Source: Pomacea canaliculata
Lineage: Eukaryota; Mollusca; Gastropoda; Architaenioglossa; Ampullariidae
Assembly: GCF_003073045.1 (NCBI RefSeq)
Contig: NC_037593.1
Location: 21,326,720-21,390,719 of the forward strand
Reading direction: 5' to 3'
Length of the DNA stretch: 64,000 bases
Both the position numbers and the translations under genes were made by a program. Below are positions 38,001 through 47,942 of the stretch, piece by piece (within the stretch, counting starts at the first letter, position 1; the number at the start of each line of letters is the position of its first letter). The notes under the pieces are model-generated. The model was not told where the DNA came from. It saw nothing but the letters and a program-made list of their open reading frames with translations, and did no database searches.

Positions 38001-38159
38001 CACAAGGGGGTGGTGATGGGGTATGGAGGCAGATAACACGACTAACATCCCAGTATCAGTTGAGACCCAGTGGCTACAGCCCCTGTGACGTGTCCGCAGT
38101 CTTCAATAAGACTTTCACAAGAAATATTTTGTAAGAGTCGATGAGTGAGAACCTTTAAA

Positions 38160-38456
38160 CGTCACCAGACTGGTGTGAGGCCTGTACGTCACCACACTGG
38201 TGTCAGGCCTGTACGTCACCACACTGGTGTCAGGCCTGTACGTCACCAGACTGGTGTCAGGCCTGTACGTCACCAGACTGGTGTCAGGCCTGTACGTCAC
38301 CACACTGGTGTCAGGCCTGTACGTCACCACACTGGTGTCAGGCCTGTACGTCACCAGACTGGTGTCAGGCCTGTACGTCACCACACTGGTGTCAAGCCTG
38401 TACGTCACCAGACTGGTGTCAGGCCTGTACGTCAGCAGACTGGTGTCAGGCCTGTA
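38160..38456. repeat. 27-bp minisatellite, 11 tandem copies
   Basis: The unit CGTCACCACACTGGTGTCAG followed by GCCTGTA repeats exactly 11 times over 297 bp. Each unit has a 13-bp interrupted palindrome CACCA-NNN-TGGTG. Variation is almost confined to CAC versus GAC in the spacer. Because 27 is a multiple of three, several frames on both strands stay open by chance. Confidence 0.95.
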
Positions 38457-38949: not shown

Positions 38950-39450
38950 TTGACCAGCTCAGCTCGGACACTGTCAACGGCTTTCCTTCACTCAGACTAC
39001 TTACAACTGTTTCTACCTGCCTGTAGGACTACGAATTCAGTATGCATTGACTTTTGCAAAATGAGAGGTATGTTTCCAAACCCATCTATTTCTGTCAACG
39101 GCACGGTACTCAGAGTGGTAGAGGAAGTAAAACTCCTTGGGGCCATCTTTGACCAAAACTGTTCTTTCTATCTCATATTCAATCTCTACGCCTTTCATGC
39201 AAAAAGCCTTGGACATTCTTAGAGTAGATGGCCATGTCAACTGGGGAGTGGATCGCACGGTCCTGCTGCGTCTGTATCGTGCCCTGGTCCGCTCCAAGCT
39301 AGACTATGGATCCATCATCTATGGCTCTGCTCGAGAGTCCTACCTCAAAATTGTCGATCCTATTCATCACCAAGGGCTCCGCATCTGTTTGGGTGCCTTC
39401 CGCACCACTGCTGTACAAAATTTGTATGCAGAAGCTGGTGAGGTATAAAG
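38950..39450 (+). mobile_element. Jockey-like LINE reverse transcriptase C-terminal fragment
   Basis: Two plus-strand frames join: CRTTNSVCIDFCKMRG with EEVKLLGAIFDQ, then DRTVLLRLYRALVRSKLDYG and SARESYLKIVDPIHHQGLR. Order and motifs are those of Jockey-type reverse transcriptases after the catalytic YADD region. A frameshift near 39180 and stops after 39445 show it is dead. Confidence 0.8.
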
Positions 39451-41500
39451 TGCACTTATTGTCCCAGTATAAAGAGTGAATTAAACTCTGTGGTTATCTA
39501 CAACAAGACCTACCTGATGATGTGAAACTAGAGTACCTTTCTGAAGAAGCTACTTGTTTGATTAAAACTGAGGACATTCCTAGTCAACATCTCCATGACA
39601 TAAAACCTGAGCATGGTGCACACATTTGGATGCCACACTGGATTCAGGAGAAGGGTGTGAAACTGGAGTACCATTCTCAAGATGCTACTTGTTCTTATGA
39701 GCAACCCTCGGCAGACGGGTAGACAATCAGCTTTGCTGTCACTAGCGGCACCCAGAGGAACAATACAAATACAAATCCAGTATCTAGCGCCATACTTTCT
39801 GTAAGTTTGATATTTGCCCAGATGTTCAGCACTTACCAGGCTTGTTTTCTTTAAGTGCAAGTATGACTTCATTTTTGAAGGAGGTGAAGGTCCCCTTGTA
39901 GATAACTAAGTGAGGGATGTTATTCAATTCTATTCATGGATCATGTGAACATCCAGATGTACGACATGAATTGGGACAGTGTCACGGACAACACGGACAT
40001 CTCACGCGCCACTGACCGTGACCTAGCTTTCTTCAGGGTGGTAATACATACCTTACTCACAGTATAATCACAAGGAATGCATGGAATCCGATAATAAAAG
40101 GTTTACAATACACCCAAGGCACTTTTAAAACGTTTTATTGCAAAAATACTGTTTTACTTTCTGGTTGTCTGTTTTCGTTTATTGAAAGTATTGTTTGTTG
40201 TTCTGATTGTGAAAGGGGAAAGTCTCCAGGTTGTTGTGTAAACCTTGTTGGACAAGTTTTAAATGTGCAGCTTAGTTATCACCAGAGTTAGCATCTTATG
40301 TTAAATAAAATACTTTTGTGTGCATGTGCGAGGAAAGACGGACAGCTAGTTGATGAAGGACAATTTAAAAAAGAAAAACAATTCTCGCTTTTATGGAGAA
40401 TGCAAATTAGACATGCTGTTCTTAGAGCATCACTTGACCAGAAGATGTTATTATATACATTTCTTTTTTCACTTCTCCTGTCTGTGAAAGACATTTAGTT
40501 GAATAAAGTAACATCAAGAACAAGATGCACTCATTATGATCCACAAAGTTTCAAAGAGTTGATAGACGGAGCCGTTAGAAAATCAGTGTACCTATATAGT
40601 ATATACAAGTACGTAGAAACGCAACTGTCGACATGCCTTTAGAGAGTAGTGAAAAGAGATAAGTAACATGCATTACTTTCCCTCGTCACAACACACATAT
40701 CAGCGAGAAACAATGAAAGAAGACATTTTTATGAAAAACTATATTAAATGCTCATAAAAAACGTGGTCTTTGAAATGTAAACACAATTTTAAAAATTTGA
40801 TACAAACGTGAAACAACAAAACAAACAATTAAGTGACTTGATAAGCTGGAACGAAATAGCAACTAATGAAAAAAATAAACACTTGTCCAAAAAATACGAT
40901 TTGGCACAAACATTTCAATTACTTGATTTGTTACTGACATTTAGAAACCGGCTGAGTTCCTTTTTTTCTAAAACCCAACCAACCATGTCATAAAACCTGA
41001 ATTAGCGGTTTCCTAAGGCGTTGATTAATTTTTTTTCTTAAACCTTGATTTATTCCTAAGGGAACCGTGCTCAGCTTCCTGTTGTTTTTGATTAGAACAA
41101 TTCATGTTGCTAATTAGTCATCAGCAATGGCGTCTCCACAATGTAAGTGTATCCAATATTTATGTAGCCAGGTCTTTTCACGTAATTTGTTTAATTAATT
41201 CCCCTGAATTTGTGCATTAAATTTGAAAACAGTTTTTAGTGGATTTCCAGCTGTCGGCTGCGCACAGTTCGACAAGAGAATGAAGCAGAAAGTCAAAGTA
41301 GAAGCATCTGCAATGATCCAACGTTGGCTGAAGTTTTCTAGAATGTAGCATGCAGTTAAAGTGTAGTTAGGGTGAGGGTGTGAAATCTCTGTCCACAGCC
41401 AAGAACTGATAATGAATTTCAACGGTAATTTATATGGTCGTCGTTTCGTTGGCAGGAATTGAATTAATATGCGGATATTGTCTGACTAGTTCTTGCACAA
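39451..41500. other. No gene seen
   Basis: 39451-39780 may be the decayed tail of the LINE fragment. The rest is AT-rich. Confidence 0.4.
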
Positions 41501-41997
41501 AAGCCTGCACAGGAAGATCAACATCATAAATAAGGCATAAACGATTCCTTAATTGACATCTTGATCGGACTATATAGCAAACTATAAAACATGATCAAAC
41601 CCTTGCCCAAGGGAGGGAGAAATCTGTTAATTTCGAAACTACATTTAAAAAATGAATGGATTTGCCAGAGATATGCAAATACCTGCAAAAAATTGTTCCC
41701 AGGTAAGAAATGATGGGAGAAATGCTAGCAAAAAATTAGGAGGAGAAAAAAGAGAAAAGTAAAAGCCTGCACAGGAAGATCAACATCTTAAATAAGGCAC
41801 AAAGAACTCCTTAATTGAAATCTTGATTGGACTATATATCAAACCATAAAACATGATCAAACCCTTGCCCAAGGGAGGGAGAAATCTGTTAACTTTGAAA
41901 CTACATTAAAAAAGTGAATGGCTTTGCCAGAGATATGCAAATACCTGCAAAAAATTGTTCCCAGGTAAGAAATGATGGGTGAAATGCTAGCAAAAAC
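41501..41997. repeat. Tandem duplication, period 262 bp
   Basis: 41501-41735 and 41763-41997 are about 90 percent alike by eye; both begin AAGCCTGCACAGGAAGATCA and end AAATGCTAGCAAAA. There is no coding content. Confidence 0.9.
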
Positions 41998-42256
41998 ATA
42001 AGGTGGAGGTGTATTGTTCAATGTTTAAACTTTCACGAAAGTATCTTATTTTATGCCTTTTTCTCATCATGCCCCCTGCTCAAGTGATTGATTCATTCAG
42101 AGTAAGGAGGTTGGCAGACCAGTAACAGAGGTTGCTCTGACAGCAATGTCGTTGTTGACGGAATGCATGAGAGATGATGCAACAGACCTGTAGCATATGT
42201 CACTTATCCCTGATGTCTCTTCATCTGCAGCAGCTTTGCTCAGCAGTACATACTGT

Positions 42257-44960
42257 TCATTCTGCACTGTCTTTCACTTGAGTCTGAATCTGGGGCTGGC
42301 CCTGCAATGTTGGATAATGCTGGAAACTATCGGCACTTTGAGTGTTATTCCTGCTGTCTCTGACCACTTCCAGAGGGACTGGGCTCAGAAATGGCATGTC
42401 CAAACAGATTTGCGAAGATACTGACTTCACAGAGTTTGGGACCTGTTAAGAAGCAAGTCAGTCATTAAGGTTCACATTCTGATATACACCTGATGATTAA
42501 CTGCTGGTAATGTATGTTTGCCAGAGTCAGCATAGCTTGCAAGTTAAAGCTATCATATGGAGTGCAGGTATTTTGACATTATTTTATTTGAGATTTGTTT
42601 TAACAACGAAATTTCTTACTCTGTGAAAATCATTTATAACAGTACTGTATCTTATTCTACCAGCTCTGAAAACATAGTAATACCTGAAACCCTGGAATTT
42701 GACATGAGCCTCCTTCAAAGTCAGCATCCCCATCGTTGATGCTACTACTGCTAGCATAGCCATGCTGGATGTTGCTGTTGAGCATACTACTGCTCCCTGT
42801 TCTGGCAATGGAAGAAAATGTATATGTTGAGGCAGATGGCATCATCTCTGAATTTGCCCATTTTGGCCCATCTTGCTGATGTACTCCATGAGAGAGATTC
42901 ACAGGGGCCTGCATTGTGAAAGATGGTGGGTGTGGAGCTGAGGCCATAGATCCAATCTAGAAGAAAACAAATTCACAGCAAAAGATGACTGAGTGTGCTT
43001 CAATCTGTATTCAGAAAATATTTGTAAAGTGCGTCAAGTCTTCTAGCTGTACAGTGGGGGAAATGTTCTGTAAAAATCTGCACTATTGTTATTATTGGAA
43101 AATAAGAGGTTTTGTGTGATTGCCTTCTTTCAACTAGAAGGAAGACAGTATCCACTCTGCTTAAAGCTGCAAATAGTATAATTGTAACTTCATTTTTTAA
43201 AACCTGCATTCTTAGATTCATCAATGTTTATTGATGATTTTATGGGAAAATACAAACTGCAATTCTGCGAGTCCATCATGTCTGACATTATTTCAGTGTT
43301 AACATCTAATATATCAGATTCTAGTGTTAGGGTCTGCAAGTAAAATATTTCTTACAGAATTTATATATGGTCATCCAGAAGGATAATGTATTCCACTAGC
43401 AGTTCCTGTAGCAAATGTCACCACTGGTTAATGATAAGCACAGCAAGAACTCTAAATCCTTACTTGTCTTAAGCTGGTGGTTGCGTTGATCTTGTCAGAA
43501 TTGTTTGACACCAACTCCCTCAGCTCACGCCTACAGCGCCTGCGGTCACTGTTTAAACTGCAGTTTGCACATCCACACCAAGCATATGGGCAAACATTGC
43601 GATGGCTTTTGATGCGTACTCTGATGCTGTCATGTACCCAGCACTTGAAACACATTGGGAAACGCTTTAGTGGATCTACAATGAAACACATAGGCATACG
43701 CTTTAGTGAATCTGAATGTTAAAAGATAATCCACATACTGAAACCACACACTAAATGTAGCAGTACCTCTAAATGATCACATTATGACTGCATACTACAA
43801 GCCTTTTAAAGGCGAATGGTGATAGCAGATTTGGCATGCAGATAAATGTACTGGCTATGTCCCAGTTTGATTTAACATGAACTGATTTTTGAGATAGTTG
43901 CAGTACATGGCATTTGGTAGGCTTTTGTTCTGAGCAATATATACACCATTGTCTTCAACAGCCACTTGTGTATGTTCAGTGCTGACAAGTGCAGAACAAA
44001 AGAATCCTCAATTTTAGGCACATTTCTGAAGCATACATGTCTTCTCTTACGGTGCAGAACCTAGTTCTTAAGCAAGCTTTTGCACATTAAAGAAATTCAG
44101 GACACGTAATGTTCAGAAACCTGCATCCTGCGATGGTGGCTCAATTGTGCCTGTTGCTATTGCCACCAGCTCAGCGTCCATGTCTTTTTGGCGTCTTAGC
44201 CTGGCCTGAAGTTTGGAAATTTCTTGCCTACGCCGTATAAAGTTGCATCCTTTGCACAAGCATCCCTCACGGTAAATACAGTATGACTTGTGTCCTGTAA
44301 CACCATTTGCCACTGCTTACATGCTCTCTGTTTCATCACTTGTCTTCTCTCTATGACTAATAGATGCATATACTATACAGACTTTACTAGCAACTGAAAT
44401 CTTTCATGTATATTAATGCACACACATAGTGCAAGGTCTTTCAACAGCTATTTTTTAAACAGCTCAAGTATAGTTATGTTTTTATTTTAGATATATATAT
44501 ATACACACACACATAAAGTTTGTGCCAAAACATATCACTTTAAGATGATATCCTTATTACACATTTTTGCTGTTCACCTATGTTCTGTTTTTTTCTTATG
44601 CGGTAAATTCATTTATTATCTGAAACCATTGTGCTTTCACGGTATGATCTAAAGTTATATAATGTGTAGGACTGAACATTTGGCAAACTGTTCAGTTTCC
44701 CATGCAGAACTGGTTTGTTGCTGTAGTATTATTTATGTATTAACTACTACAAGACTTATGTCTCTTCCTTTCTACAAAAATAGTGTAAGGACTATTAATA
44801 CCTGTGATACCGATGTCAACTCCATGAATTTTGCAGAAAGCACACTGATGATACTTTTTATGGGAGTTGTTTCTTGCTGGGTTAAAAACCTGAGTGTCAA
44901 GGCCAGACTGAGACAAAGAACTGGACAGAAGCTGTTGTGATGAAGTCATCTGGATGATTT
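42257..44960 (-). CDS. DM-domain (Doublesex/Mab-3) protein with two tandem DM domains
   Basis: Five coding exons on the minus strand join in consistent phase: 44960-44802, 44294-44121, 43675-43464, 42956-42684 and 42442-42257, stop at 42259-42257. From the ATG at 44949 this gives about 330 codons. DM domain 1 spans exons 1 and 2: CAFCKIHG, then TGHKSYC, then CLCKGC, followed by a basic recognition-helix-like stretch (RRRQEISKLQARLRRQ). DM domain 2 lies in exon 3: MCFKC, KSHRNVC, CGCANC, then RRRCRREL. DM domains are intertwined CCHC/HCCC zinc modules that bind DNA in the minor groove; the family controls sexual and neural differentiation. Domain 1 has five rather than four residues between two late cysteines (C-IYREG-C). 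Exon 4 is Ser/Asn/Gln rich without a recognised domain; exon 5 ends the protein. Exon 1 is preceded by an acceptor-like tract, so upstream exons or a 5' UTR intron may exist. The two-domain layout resembles nematode MAB-3/DMD-3; orthology is not claimed. Confidence 0.85.
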
Positions 44961-45984
44961 CTGGTAAACAGGAATAAATACTACAGTCCAATATTGAGAT
45001 AATCACTTCAGTAGCTTAAAATGAGAAAGAAGTATGAATAGATGCTGTAGATATTTTAAAATGCAATAGTACTTAATGTTCTATAACAAGCTGATTAACA
45101 GTAACAGGAGTGGCACATAGTGCAATCATAATTTCAAAGGTATATGTAGACTACATATGAATGCTTTCTTATGAGACAATTTTTATCAATTAAAATGTTG
45201 ACCTGCAATAGTGGGAATTTTATTGAAACAGTCCACTGCTATCTGTATAGCTGTCAGCAGTTGACTGAAAGGAGATGTACAACTGCTAGGTTAGGCCTCC
45301 AGTGACCATTAGCTTCTTACACTGTCATTAACAGGATTCACAAAAAGATAATAAATTTTGTAAATAATAGCATTTTATAAGTGTCAAAACTCTTGTCTCT
45401 AAAAATATTGCACAGTTAGTTCCCTTCAGCAGGATTCCATAAAACACCAATACTGAACGATTTCCTGCAAAGCTGTTTTGTGTACCTTCAAGCCTTAGCC
45501 TTTTCATTATTATCATCAGCACAACCTCCACTACCACATACCACTACAACAAAGTCAATCATACCACATTCCACTTATCAAAACAATGTGTAATTACAAC
45601 ACACACACACACACACAGAAAAACAGCCTGTAATCTAAGGAAATGAGACATCAAGCCTTTAACAGCTCAAAGAAAACTAGGAATAGCAACATAGGATAGC
45701 CAGGGAATTGCTGCTTACATTGCTGCTAAAGTTTTGGAGCCTTGCTTACCATTTGTCCTCAAAGGTGTGATATGTTTTTTGTATGAATAGACCTTTAATG
45801 ATTCTGTCAGTACATAATATGGTAATATATATACACACACATGCATGATTTACAGTCACAATGTTTAGGTCTAGGATGGACTGCATATTAAACAGTGGTG
45901 TCATATGATTATAATGGAGCTAAACAATGCCACTTACCTAGTTAGCAGTAATGTCTAACACACTAAACTTGGCAATAATTTTGA
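44961..45984. other. Presumed 5' flank of the DM-domain gene
   Basis: Upstream of the first recognised exon of the minus-strand gene. No promoter motif is clear. A CA repeat lies at about 45600-45618. Confidence 0.4.
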
Positions 45985-46280
45985 GGATGGATAGCAAAGT
46001 GGTTAAAGTGTCCGAACTGACAGTCTGGTTCAATACCCATCTAGTGCAGCAAATTTCCCTTAGTTGAAAGGTTGTGTTTGTGGTAATCCTGGTATAAGCA
46101 AACTTACTGCACTGCTAGTTGTACAAAAAGGTAGTGTAATAGTTAAAACACCCGCTTGTCACTATTGCAGACAGAAGTGGTGAGCTCAGATATACCTTGG
46201 TACACTCGCTGTATGTGACACCAGCTATTGAAGTTTGCTCTGACTCACCCCCCCCCCTCAACTCCAATTTCCCGCCAAAA
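45985..46280 (+). mobile_element. tRNA-derived SINE, possibly dimeric
   Basis: ATAGCAAAGTGGTTAAAGTG (A box) and CTGGTTCAATACCC (B box) start at about 45990. A second, weaker tRNA-like unit (GTAGTGTAATAGTTAAAACA, then GGTGAGCTCAGAT) follows at about 46130-46190. Confidence 0.5.
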
Positions 46281-46338
46281 CAAGCAATTAACTAACCAGC
46301 CAGTTGTATAAAAGTATAGCAAATACAATTACATAGTA

Positions 46339-46790
46339 CAGTGATGCCCAACCTTTTTCGGCCTGCGGGCCATACACATTTCCGACACGCGTGTTACGGG
46401 CCGCTTCACCGCAAAAATGCAAACTCGAAAAAAAAAAAATAGAGCAGATACCGATTTTTTTTATTAGAAACAAGTTGTACTTACCATTAATTATTTAGTA
46501 ATTAGTGAGATATTTGAAGTTGTTTTCCCGAAACCAACTTCTGAATGTCCGGCCTCATCGTAGAGACACCAAGTCGGAGCACTGAATCGAAATGTTCGTC
46601 CATCGAAAAAAAGATTGGGAAACGCCACTACGTAGGGATAAATACTTCTTCTTCCCATTTTTCGTTTTTCTAGGTCTTTTTTTATTACTAACATGCCAAT
46701 TTCTTGCACTGTGGGCAGCTGTTTCGCGGGCCGGATGGCACCGTGTCACGGGCCGAATATGGCCCGCGGGCCGTAGGTTGGGCATCCCTG
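46339..46790. mobile_element. Non-autonomous hAT element, 452 bp
   Basis: Terminal inverted repeats CAGTGATGCCCAACCT and AGGTTGGGCATCCCTG. The 8-bp duplication ACATAGTA flanks it at 46331-46338 and 46791-46798. GGCCCGCGGGCC-type subterminal motifs are typical of this family. Confidence 0.9.
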
Positions 46791-47077
46791 ACATAGTACA
46801 TAATGATTATAACAAACAACTATGATGTTTAAACAATGACTAAGTCACCTAATAGTGCCTTTCTCAGAACTGTCTCAATTTTGTTTGGTATATTTATATA
46901 TACGCGCGCACACACACATATATATATACACAGTAACGTACGTGTTCCCATGGGAAAAATCCCCAAGTTTTAGAAGTAAATTTTTTAAAATAAAAATATC
47001 CGAATTGACAACAGCTATAGAAGTAGGCCGCATTCACTTATATGCTGACTCAATTGTTCTTACAATATGACTTTAAA

Positions 47078-47280
47078 TAAGGTGACCAGACGTTTCGGAG
47101 GCGAAATCGGGACACGTGCCGATGATGGTCTCGTCAAAGAACGCCGAAAAAAGCGGGACATTTGATGGACTTGCCAGAAAGCCAGACAGCGGGACAATGG
47201 GCGTCCAGCCCGACGAGCAGGCGAGACACGAGGTCAAAAGCGAGACTGTCCCGCCTAAAGCGGAATGTCTGGTCACCTTA
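47078..47280. mobile_element. Short hAT-like element, 203 bp
   Basis: Inverted ends TAAGGTGACCAGAC and GTCTGGTCACCTTA. CTTTAAA (7 bp, possibly ACTTTAAA) is repeated at 47071-47077 and 47281-47287. Superfamily is assigned from the duplication length and end sequence. Confidence 0.75.
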
Positions 47281-47942
47281 CTTTAAACAGATTCCAAATT
47301 TGACTCCATACGCAGATGCAGTTGGAAAACATTGGGGAAAAAAAAACAATGAAAAAGTAAAGTAAAAACAAAATGTAAACTAGATGAAAGGTTTGTGGAA
47401 GGAACAGGTTTCATAAAATTTTGATAATAAAAATGATAGTGGCAATCTCTTAATCACTTACTTTCAATTATTGCAAAGAAACATATCCATTACTTCACAC
47501 CAAGTAAAAGACATTTCGAAATGATTTTCGATAAGTACTTAAAAAAAAAGCCTACCCGATCAGAGTTTCTTCCGTAGCAGAATATTCTTGAATACAATCT
47601 GAATAATGTTTTTTTCGGGTTCAAGCTTCCACGACTGGAAATTACTTCAGCAGTGCAAGGACTAATTGTGTGATCAGGTGGGACCGCCCTATTGAGTAGG
47701 GATGTCAGGTTGCTATCATGCCTTTTCAACTTATTTTTACTTGAAGTTAATTATCTCTGGGAAGGCCTGTGACGAACGATGAAAATCACTAAAGCATGAA
47801 ATAATTAAATTTAGGTGTTTTCAGAGTTAACAATGACAAATTCTACGAAATAAAGTTAGGCAACGTTACTGGCCTTTGACGAGAGTGAACTCGCCCAAGT
47901 CTCCAAGTCGTAACAAAAAATGGCTAAAGTGTTAAACAATTT

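Follow-up and report, generated by a model that had tools for sequence, protein, structure and literature searches.

A shortened two-DM gene of the apple snail Pomacea canaliculata, segmentally duplicated from a longer partner

The apple snail Pomacea canaliculata has two genes that each encode two DM domains. The one analysed here is a later, ~8-kb segmental copy of a longer two-DM gene, probably a Dmrt-1L, on contig C1, with a domain doubling that is itself old. From its sequence, the copy would be either a decaying duplicate or a cut-down, altered regulator. A sequence-only reading of this DNA had drawn attention to the two tandem DM domains; the present analysis adds that the layout is common to four caenogastropod families, and that P. 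canaliculata carries, beside the longer two-DM gene, a cut-down and fast-changing copy of it.

Gene model and DM domains

The window (the whole stretch of 64,000 nucleotides that was analysed) is C4:21326720-21390719 of the P. canaliculata assembly (440 Mb, 24 contigs). Its gene lies on the minus strand (44949-42257), and 993 nt in 5 exons provide 330 codons and a stop. All 4/4 junctions are GT-AG, with phases 1, 1, 0, 0, in agreement with the five exons in consistent phase that had been proposed. The spliced protein is identical over all 330 residues to P. canaliculata LOC112561663 (P0001), and the host, called a probable mollusc from the letters, is thereby identified as one. Exon 1 may start at 44960 (Table 1), since the acceptor AG (44961-44962) of the third coding exon of the C1 gene is preserved.

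Table 1. Features of the two-DM gene and of the duplicated segment (window positions)
Feature	Position	Strand	Remarks
duplicated segment	39704..47933	-	matches C1:39807366-39815859, inverted order, ten pieces
counterpart of C1 first coding exon	47462..47484	-	six codons, then a stop, owing to a 1-nt deletion; GTAAGT donor intact
N-terminal loss point	45503..45507	-	~0.22 kb missing, with most of C1 exon 2
exon 1	44802..44960	-	coding from ATG at 44949 (coding part 44949-44802)
DM1	44212..44850	-	aa 34-77, interrupted by intron 1; Pfam 36.8 bits
exon 2	44121..44294	-	DM1 second half and DM1 helix
exon 3	43464..43675	-	complete DM2; 3' end is C1 exons 5 and 6 fused
DM2	43530..43664	-	aa 112-156; Pfam 33.0 bits
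internal loss point	43486..43488	-	~0.26 kb missing: C1 exon 5 end, intron, most of exon 6
exon 4	42684..42956	-	coding
exon 5	42257..42442	-	stop TGA at 42257-42259
counterpart of C1 last 55 residues	42097..42267	-	56 residues readable, other frame, after 2-nt difference

The DM domain, a type known from sex-regulating genes, binds DNA via two intertwined zinc sites and the helix that follows them, usually as a dimer, and a two-DM protein might contact two half sites alone. A Pfam search of the whole window protein gave two PF00751 stretches, 57.4 bits combined; exons 1-2 alone reach 36.8 bits and exon 3 alone 33.0 bits, each above the cut-off of 27 bits. The claim of one gene with two full DM domains is thus upheld, as is the expectation that this search would give two matches. 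The first domain had been described as divided between exons 1 and 2 and the second as whole in exon 3, and so they are: intron 1 interrupts DM1 after residue 49, just 5' of GHKSYC, and the exon-3 module is the sole contiguous DM module found by a six-frame motif scan of the window. The CCHHCCCC ligand positions, assigned after the Doublesex DM structure, are kept in both domains (16/16), and the zinc ligands are thus all present, as claimed.

No family besides PF00751 was found in the whole protein at E up to 10, hence no DMA domain. Comparison with solved structures matched DM1 twice, to human DMRT1 (4yj0, E 2.4e-10) and to fly Doublesex (1lpv, E 6.7e-6), and a third match, to a defensin-like peptide (E 0.69), was taken as chance. 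A tRNA scan of the window found none.

With DM1 and DM2 in different exons, the gene model might have wrongly joined two adjacent single-DM genes; but the junction phases are consistent and the identical joined layout recurs in four further proteins (P0002, P0003, P0004 and P0005, see below), and we reject this explanation as next to impossible.

Relatives, age of the doubling and the Dmrt-1L label

Three protein searches returned 2/1627, 4/227 and 5/4479 candidates, caenogastropods only; bivalve sequences, including the published two-DM mytilid genes, were absent from the matches returned. The relatives comprise LOC112574729 of P. canaliculata (P0002, on contig C1; isoform X2 by its label, 507 aa) and a single protein from each of three other snails, Batillaria attramentaria (P0003), Littorina saxatilis (P0004) and Nucella lapillus (P0005). 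Each of these four proteins contains two DM stretches, and at E up to 1 DM is the sole family in them, hence no DMA domain. Their hosts represent four caenogastropod families (Ampullariidae, Batillariidae, Littorinidae and Muricidae). In a tree of 15 DM domains that includes the five two-DM proteins of the four species, DM1 sequences group at 92/100 and DM2 sequences at 99/100. Because each domain forms its own group across the five proteins, DM1 and DM2 were distinct before the four lineages split, and a doubling within Pomacea is ruled out; the layout common to Batillaria, Littorina and Nucella likewise makes the doubling old. The sequence-only reading had judged the two domains clearly different and their doubling not recent, and was right on both counts. 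The tree is weakly resolved, with 2 of 12 inner branches reaching the strict mark, and its deeper branching order is for that reason left unread.

N-terminal of the DM domains, at residues about 28-46, a CSCxxC motif is conserved in P0002-P0005 (4/4). With E values up to 1 allowed, Pfam has no family that covers this region in these proteins, and the motif is possibly a further metal site.

A genome-wide search with PF00751 gave 29 matches at E up to 10, of which six, spread over five loci, exceed the cut-off. Contig C10 has three single-DM loci (83-89 bits), which fall outside the two-DM groups in the weakly resolved tree; C1 and C4 have one two-DM locus each. The DM1 piece of the C1 gene, cut by an intron, stays below the cut-off at 23.4 bits. 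When the genome was searched with the DNA of the window gene, the 15 matches were the gene itself, the C1 copy (two pieces) and 12 to a ~90-nt stretch of intron (42999-43095), with 73-83% identity at those 12 other places. A large expansion of two-DM genes is ruled out, the genome having two copies.

Molluscs are described as having Dmrt-2, Dmrt-3, Dmrt-4/5 and a mollusc-specific Dmrt-1L, and an extra DM domain is reported in the Dmrt-1L of Mytilida and, in one sentence, of P. canaliculata (PMC12530298). By elimination of Dmrt-2, -3 and -4/5, which together would account for the three single-DM loci, the C1 and C4 genes would be the doubled Dmrt-1L; the label combines this elimination with that sentence, bivalve Dmrt-1L being known here by description only. 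As expected of Dmrt-1L, the window gene has DM domains without a DMA domain and is distinct from the three single-DM loci of the snail. It is like other mollusc Dmrt-1L genes in lacking DMA and, as in Mytilida and P. canaliculata, in carrying an extra DM domain (PMC12530298, PMC10541798), but differs in being shorter than its C1 partner. In PMC12530298, Dmrt-1L is not recovered as a single group when reference species are included in the tree; DMRT1L expression in bivalves is described as male-biased (PMC10541798).

The nematode MAB-3/DMD-3 genes had been cited as the known two-domain type, a claim that the literature overturns. Two-DM genes are published for Malacostraca (PMC10252143; PMC12154352), for a spider and ants (PMC6604209) and for molluscs, where the golden mussel DMRT1L has two DM domains (PMC10541798) and bivalve genes are said to carry "one to two DM domains" (PMC10428544). 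The existence of such genes in other phyla than nematodes is therefore already in print, for P. canaliculata in the one sentence of PMC12530298. A 2026 C. elegans paper calls the two-DM feature not common to other invertebrates (PMC13089330). MAB-3/DMD-3, known here by description only, resemble the window gene in their two adjacent DM domains and differ in being described as a nematode-specific group (PMC13089330). The literature searched, main texts mostly from outside subscription journals, yielded no description of the shortened second copy in P. canaliculata, none of the layout that Batillaria, Littorina and Nucella have in common with it, and no mention of the locus numbers LOC112561663 and LOC112574729.

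Molluscs and nematodes, and crustaceans perhaps too, might owe their two-DM layout to a single ancient protostome inheritance, as would fit a doubling older than four caenogastropod families, the two-DM Dmrt-1L of mytilids (PMC12530298, PMC10541798), and the position of C. elegans genes among bivalve genes in the tree of PMC12530298. Yet mab-3, dsx and dmrt1 are separated in PMC6737965, iDmrt1 is confined to Malacostraca (PMC10252143), and PMC10541798 reports scallop and oyster clades of DMRT1L as well as members with a single DM domain; with the nematode and crustacean genes known here by description only, we consider such common descent unlikely.

The C1 partner and the structure of the copy

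The ten matching pieces of the duplicated segment are 84-96% identical between the window and C1, introns and flanks included, and the copy was accordingly made at the level of a DNA segment; a processed copy is ruled out, since introns are retained. Joined together, the eight coding exons of the C1 gene exactly encode LOC112574729, and 267 of the 369 aligned columns are identical between its product and the window protein. The two genes share the same two DM domains, the splice borders of their common exons, and introns that are 90-93% identical. LOC112574729 differs in its length of 507 aa, its N-terminal CSCxxC region, 37 extra internal residues and a C-terminal tail, and its DM domains retain the residues of other snails, unlike those of the window copy.

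The N-terminal CSCxxC region, present in P0002-P0005, is deleted in the window copy, and because it is common to the C1 gene and the other three snails, the loss is placed on the window copy. The internal loss fuses C1 exons 5 and 6 in frame, leaving 37 residues fewer; as it removes an intron and parts of both adjoining exons, it too is best read as a deletion in the window copy. At the C-terminus, the window protein ends before its partner through a 2-nt difference near the end, beyond which a C1-like tail is readable in another frame. This tail is absent from the Batillaria, Littorina and Nucella proteins, and the 2-nt change may therefore be on either copy. Between the two tails there are 5 silent base differences, 4 others and one codon gained or lost in frame, a pattern suggestive of a tail that was already coding when the copies split. 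With the acceptor before 44960 and the first-exon donor both kept, the leader could be spliced to exon 1 and the transcript translated from the ATG at 44949.

Divergence, possible roles and neighbouring repeats

Introns of the two copies differ at 173/2157 aligned sites (and by 22 indels, 17 of which have a length not divisible by three) and exons, tail included, at 94/1126, so that exon divergence of the window copy equals intron divergence. Pairwise dN/dS is 0.75 over 327 codons (leaving out the three codons beyond the 2-nt difference); it is 1.11 for DM1, 1.14 for DM2, about 1.0 for DM1-linker-DM2, and 0.52 for the C-terminal part, a value that also includes the branch of the constrained partner. 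Within DM1 and DM2, 24 residues differ, and 16 of these can be polarised by the other snails: all (16/16) changed on the window copy. Among the remainder, 2 occur in both states in the other snails and 6 have no clear direction; the linker changes divide 2 to 1, with another 4 unpolarised. On this evidence selection constrains the C1 domains, and the window ones are less constrained or are driven to change; they change faster than their partner's. Altered residues occur in both domains of the window copy and also in the DM1 helix, and changes past the last ligand of DM1 include L68F, C71R, N72R, N78L and V80A (window numbering).

One account of such divergence would be that the window copy is a decaying duplicate that makes no useful protein, its open frame a remnant and its database model a computed one. 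Three structural losses or breaks in the copy, the equal divergence of exons and introns, and the dN/dS of both DM domains are all consistent with decay, as is the change of 11/64 positions that are invariant in the other four proteins (against 13/38 variable ones; Fisher P 0.058). On the other hand, the four junctions and 330 codons are intact, and the internal loss preserved the frame. Exons 1-4 show zero frame breaks and zero stops where about 3.1 and 1.3 would be expected under neutrality (P about 0.012, a figure for the window branch and exons 1-4 only, with lesions elsewhere excluded), and the 24 changes leave every zinc ligand untouched (P about 0.009, post hoc). The C-terminal dN/dS also speaks against decay, albeit with the partner's branch included. 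We regard decay as a serious contender that falls somewhat short of an even chance, and the question of whether the window copy makes a working protein as about evenly balanced.

An excess of amino acid change in the DM domains depends on how neutral divergence is apportioned. With half of the intron divergence (K 0.085) placed on the window branch, and DM1 and DM2 chosen after seeing the data, 10.2 non-synonymous changes are expected in these domains and 27 are counted, both branches together; the P value is 0.056 for the 16 safe window-branch residues and 9e-6 for all 27. Replacing introns by coding dS gives 0.35 (16) and 0.002 (27), and if the window branch takes the whole of the neutral divergence, the values are 0.86 (16) and 0.09 (27). 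Silent and non-silent changes in the DM domains compared with the C-terminal part give a Fisher P of 0.19. Positive selection on the window DM1 and DM2 is thus not established, with P ranging from 9e-6 to 0.86 by assumption.

If the segmental copy is expressed as protein, the C1 product would be the standing regulator, and the window product, by analogy with its family, would bind DNA via both of its DM domains. Having lost regions of possible activity or partner contacts, it might bind without full effect, or at altered sites. We infer that it would most likely compete with or redirect the longer C1 protein, not replace it.

In this respect the window copy is somewhat like iDMY of a lobster, a Y-chromosomal two-DM paralogue that has been cut short at its C-terminus (PMC12154352). 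The crustacean iDmrt1/iDMY pair likewise combines two DM domains with a long gene and a shortened paralogue located elsewhere, and positive selection is reported for the group (PMC12154352, PMC10252143). The likeness has limits: the truncation of Y-linked iDMY is C-terminal, whereas the window copy has its firm losses at the N-terminus and inside the protein, and iDmrt1 is known from Malacostraca only (PMC10252143), whereas the host of the window gene is a gastropod. Sex in the apple snail is reported to be under the control of a limited set of nuclear genes, with none named there (PMC13023353), and a changed DM-gene duplicate is for that reason a cheap, concrete candidate for a sex locus. That the window copy was recruited as one of these few sex-determining loci, opposing its longer partner on another chromosome, is a long shot, and any such role would be predicted from analogy; if true, it would be an independent repeat of the iDMY-versus-iDmrt1 "trick", with a two-DM gene.

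Several repeats lie in and around the duplicated segment. A short element at 46342-46790, hAT-like by eye and with inverted ends CAGTGATGCCCAACCT / AGGTTGGGCATCCCTG, sits within ~0.8 kb (46216-47029) missing from the C1 copy, and a MITE-like stretch (by eye) at 47068-47284, with ends AAGGTGACCAGACG / TGGTCACCTT, is likewise missing from C1. The 3' flank of the gene holds about two copies of a 262-nt unit (41499-42008), both matched by a single C1 stretch. Outside the segment, a reverse-transcriptase-like frame (by eye) at 39131-39448 lies just beyond its left border, and a tandem array at 38159-38456 consists of 11 copies of a 27-nt unit, with 96% matches, and is open in more than one frame.
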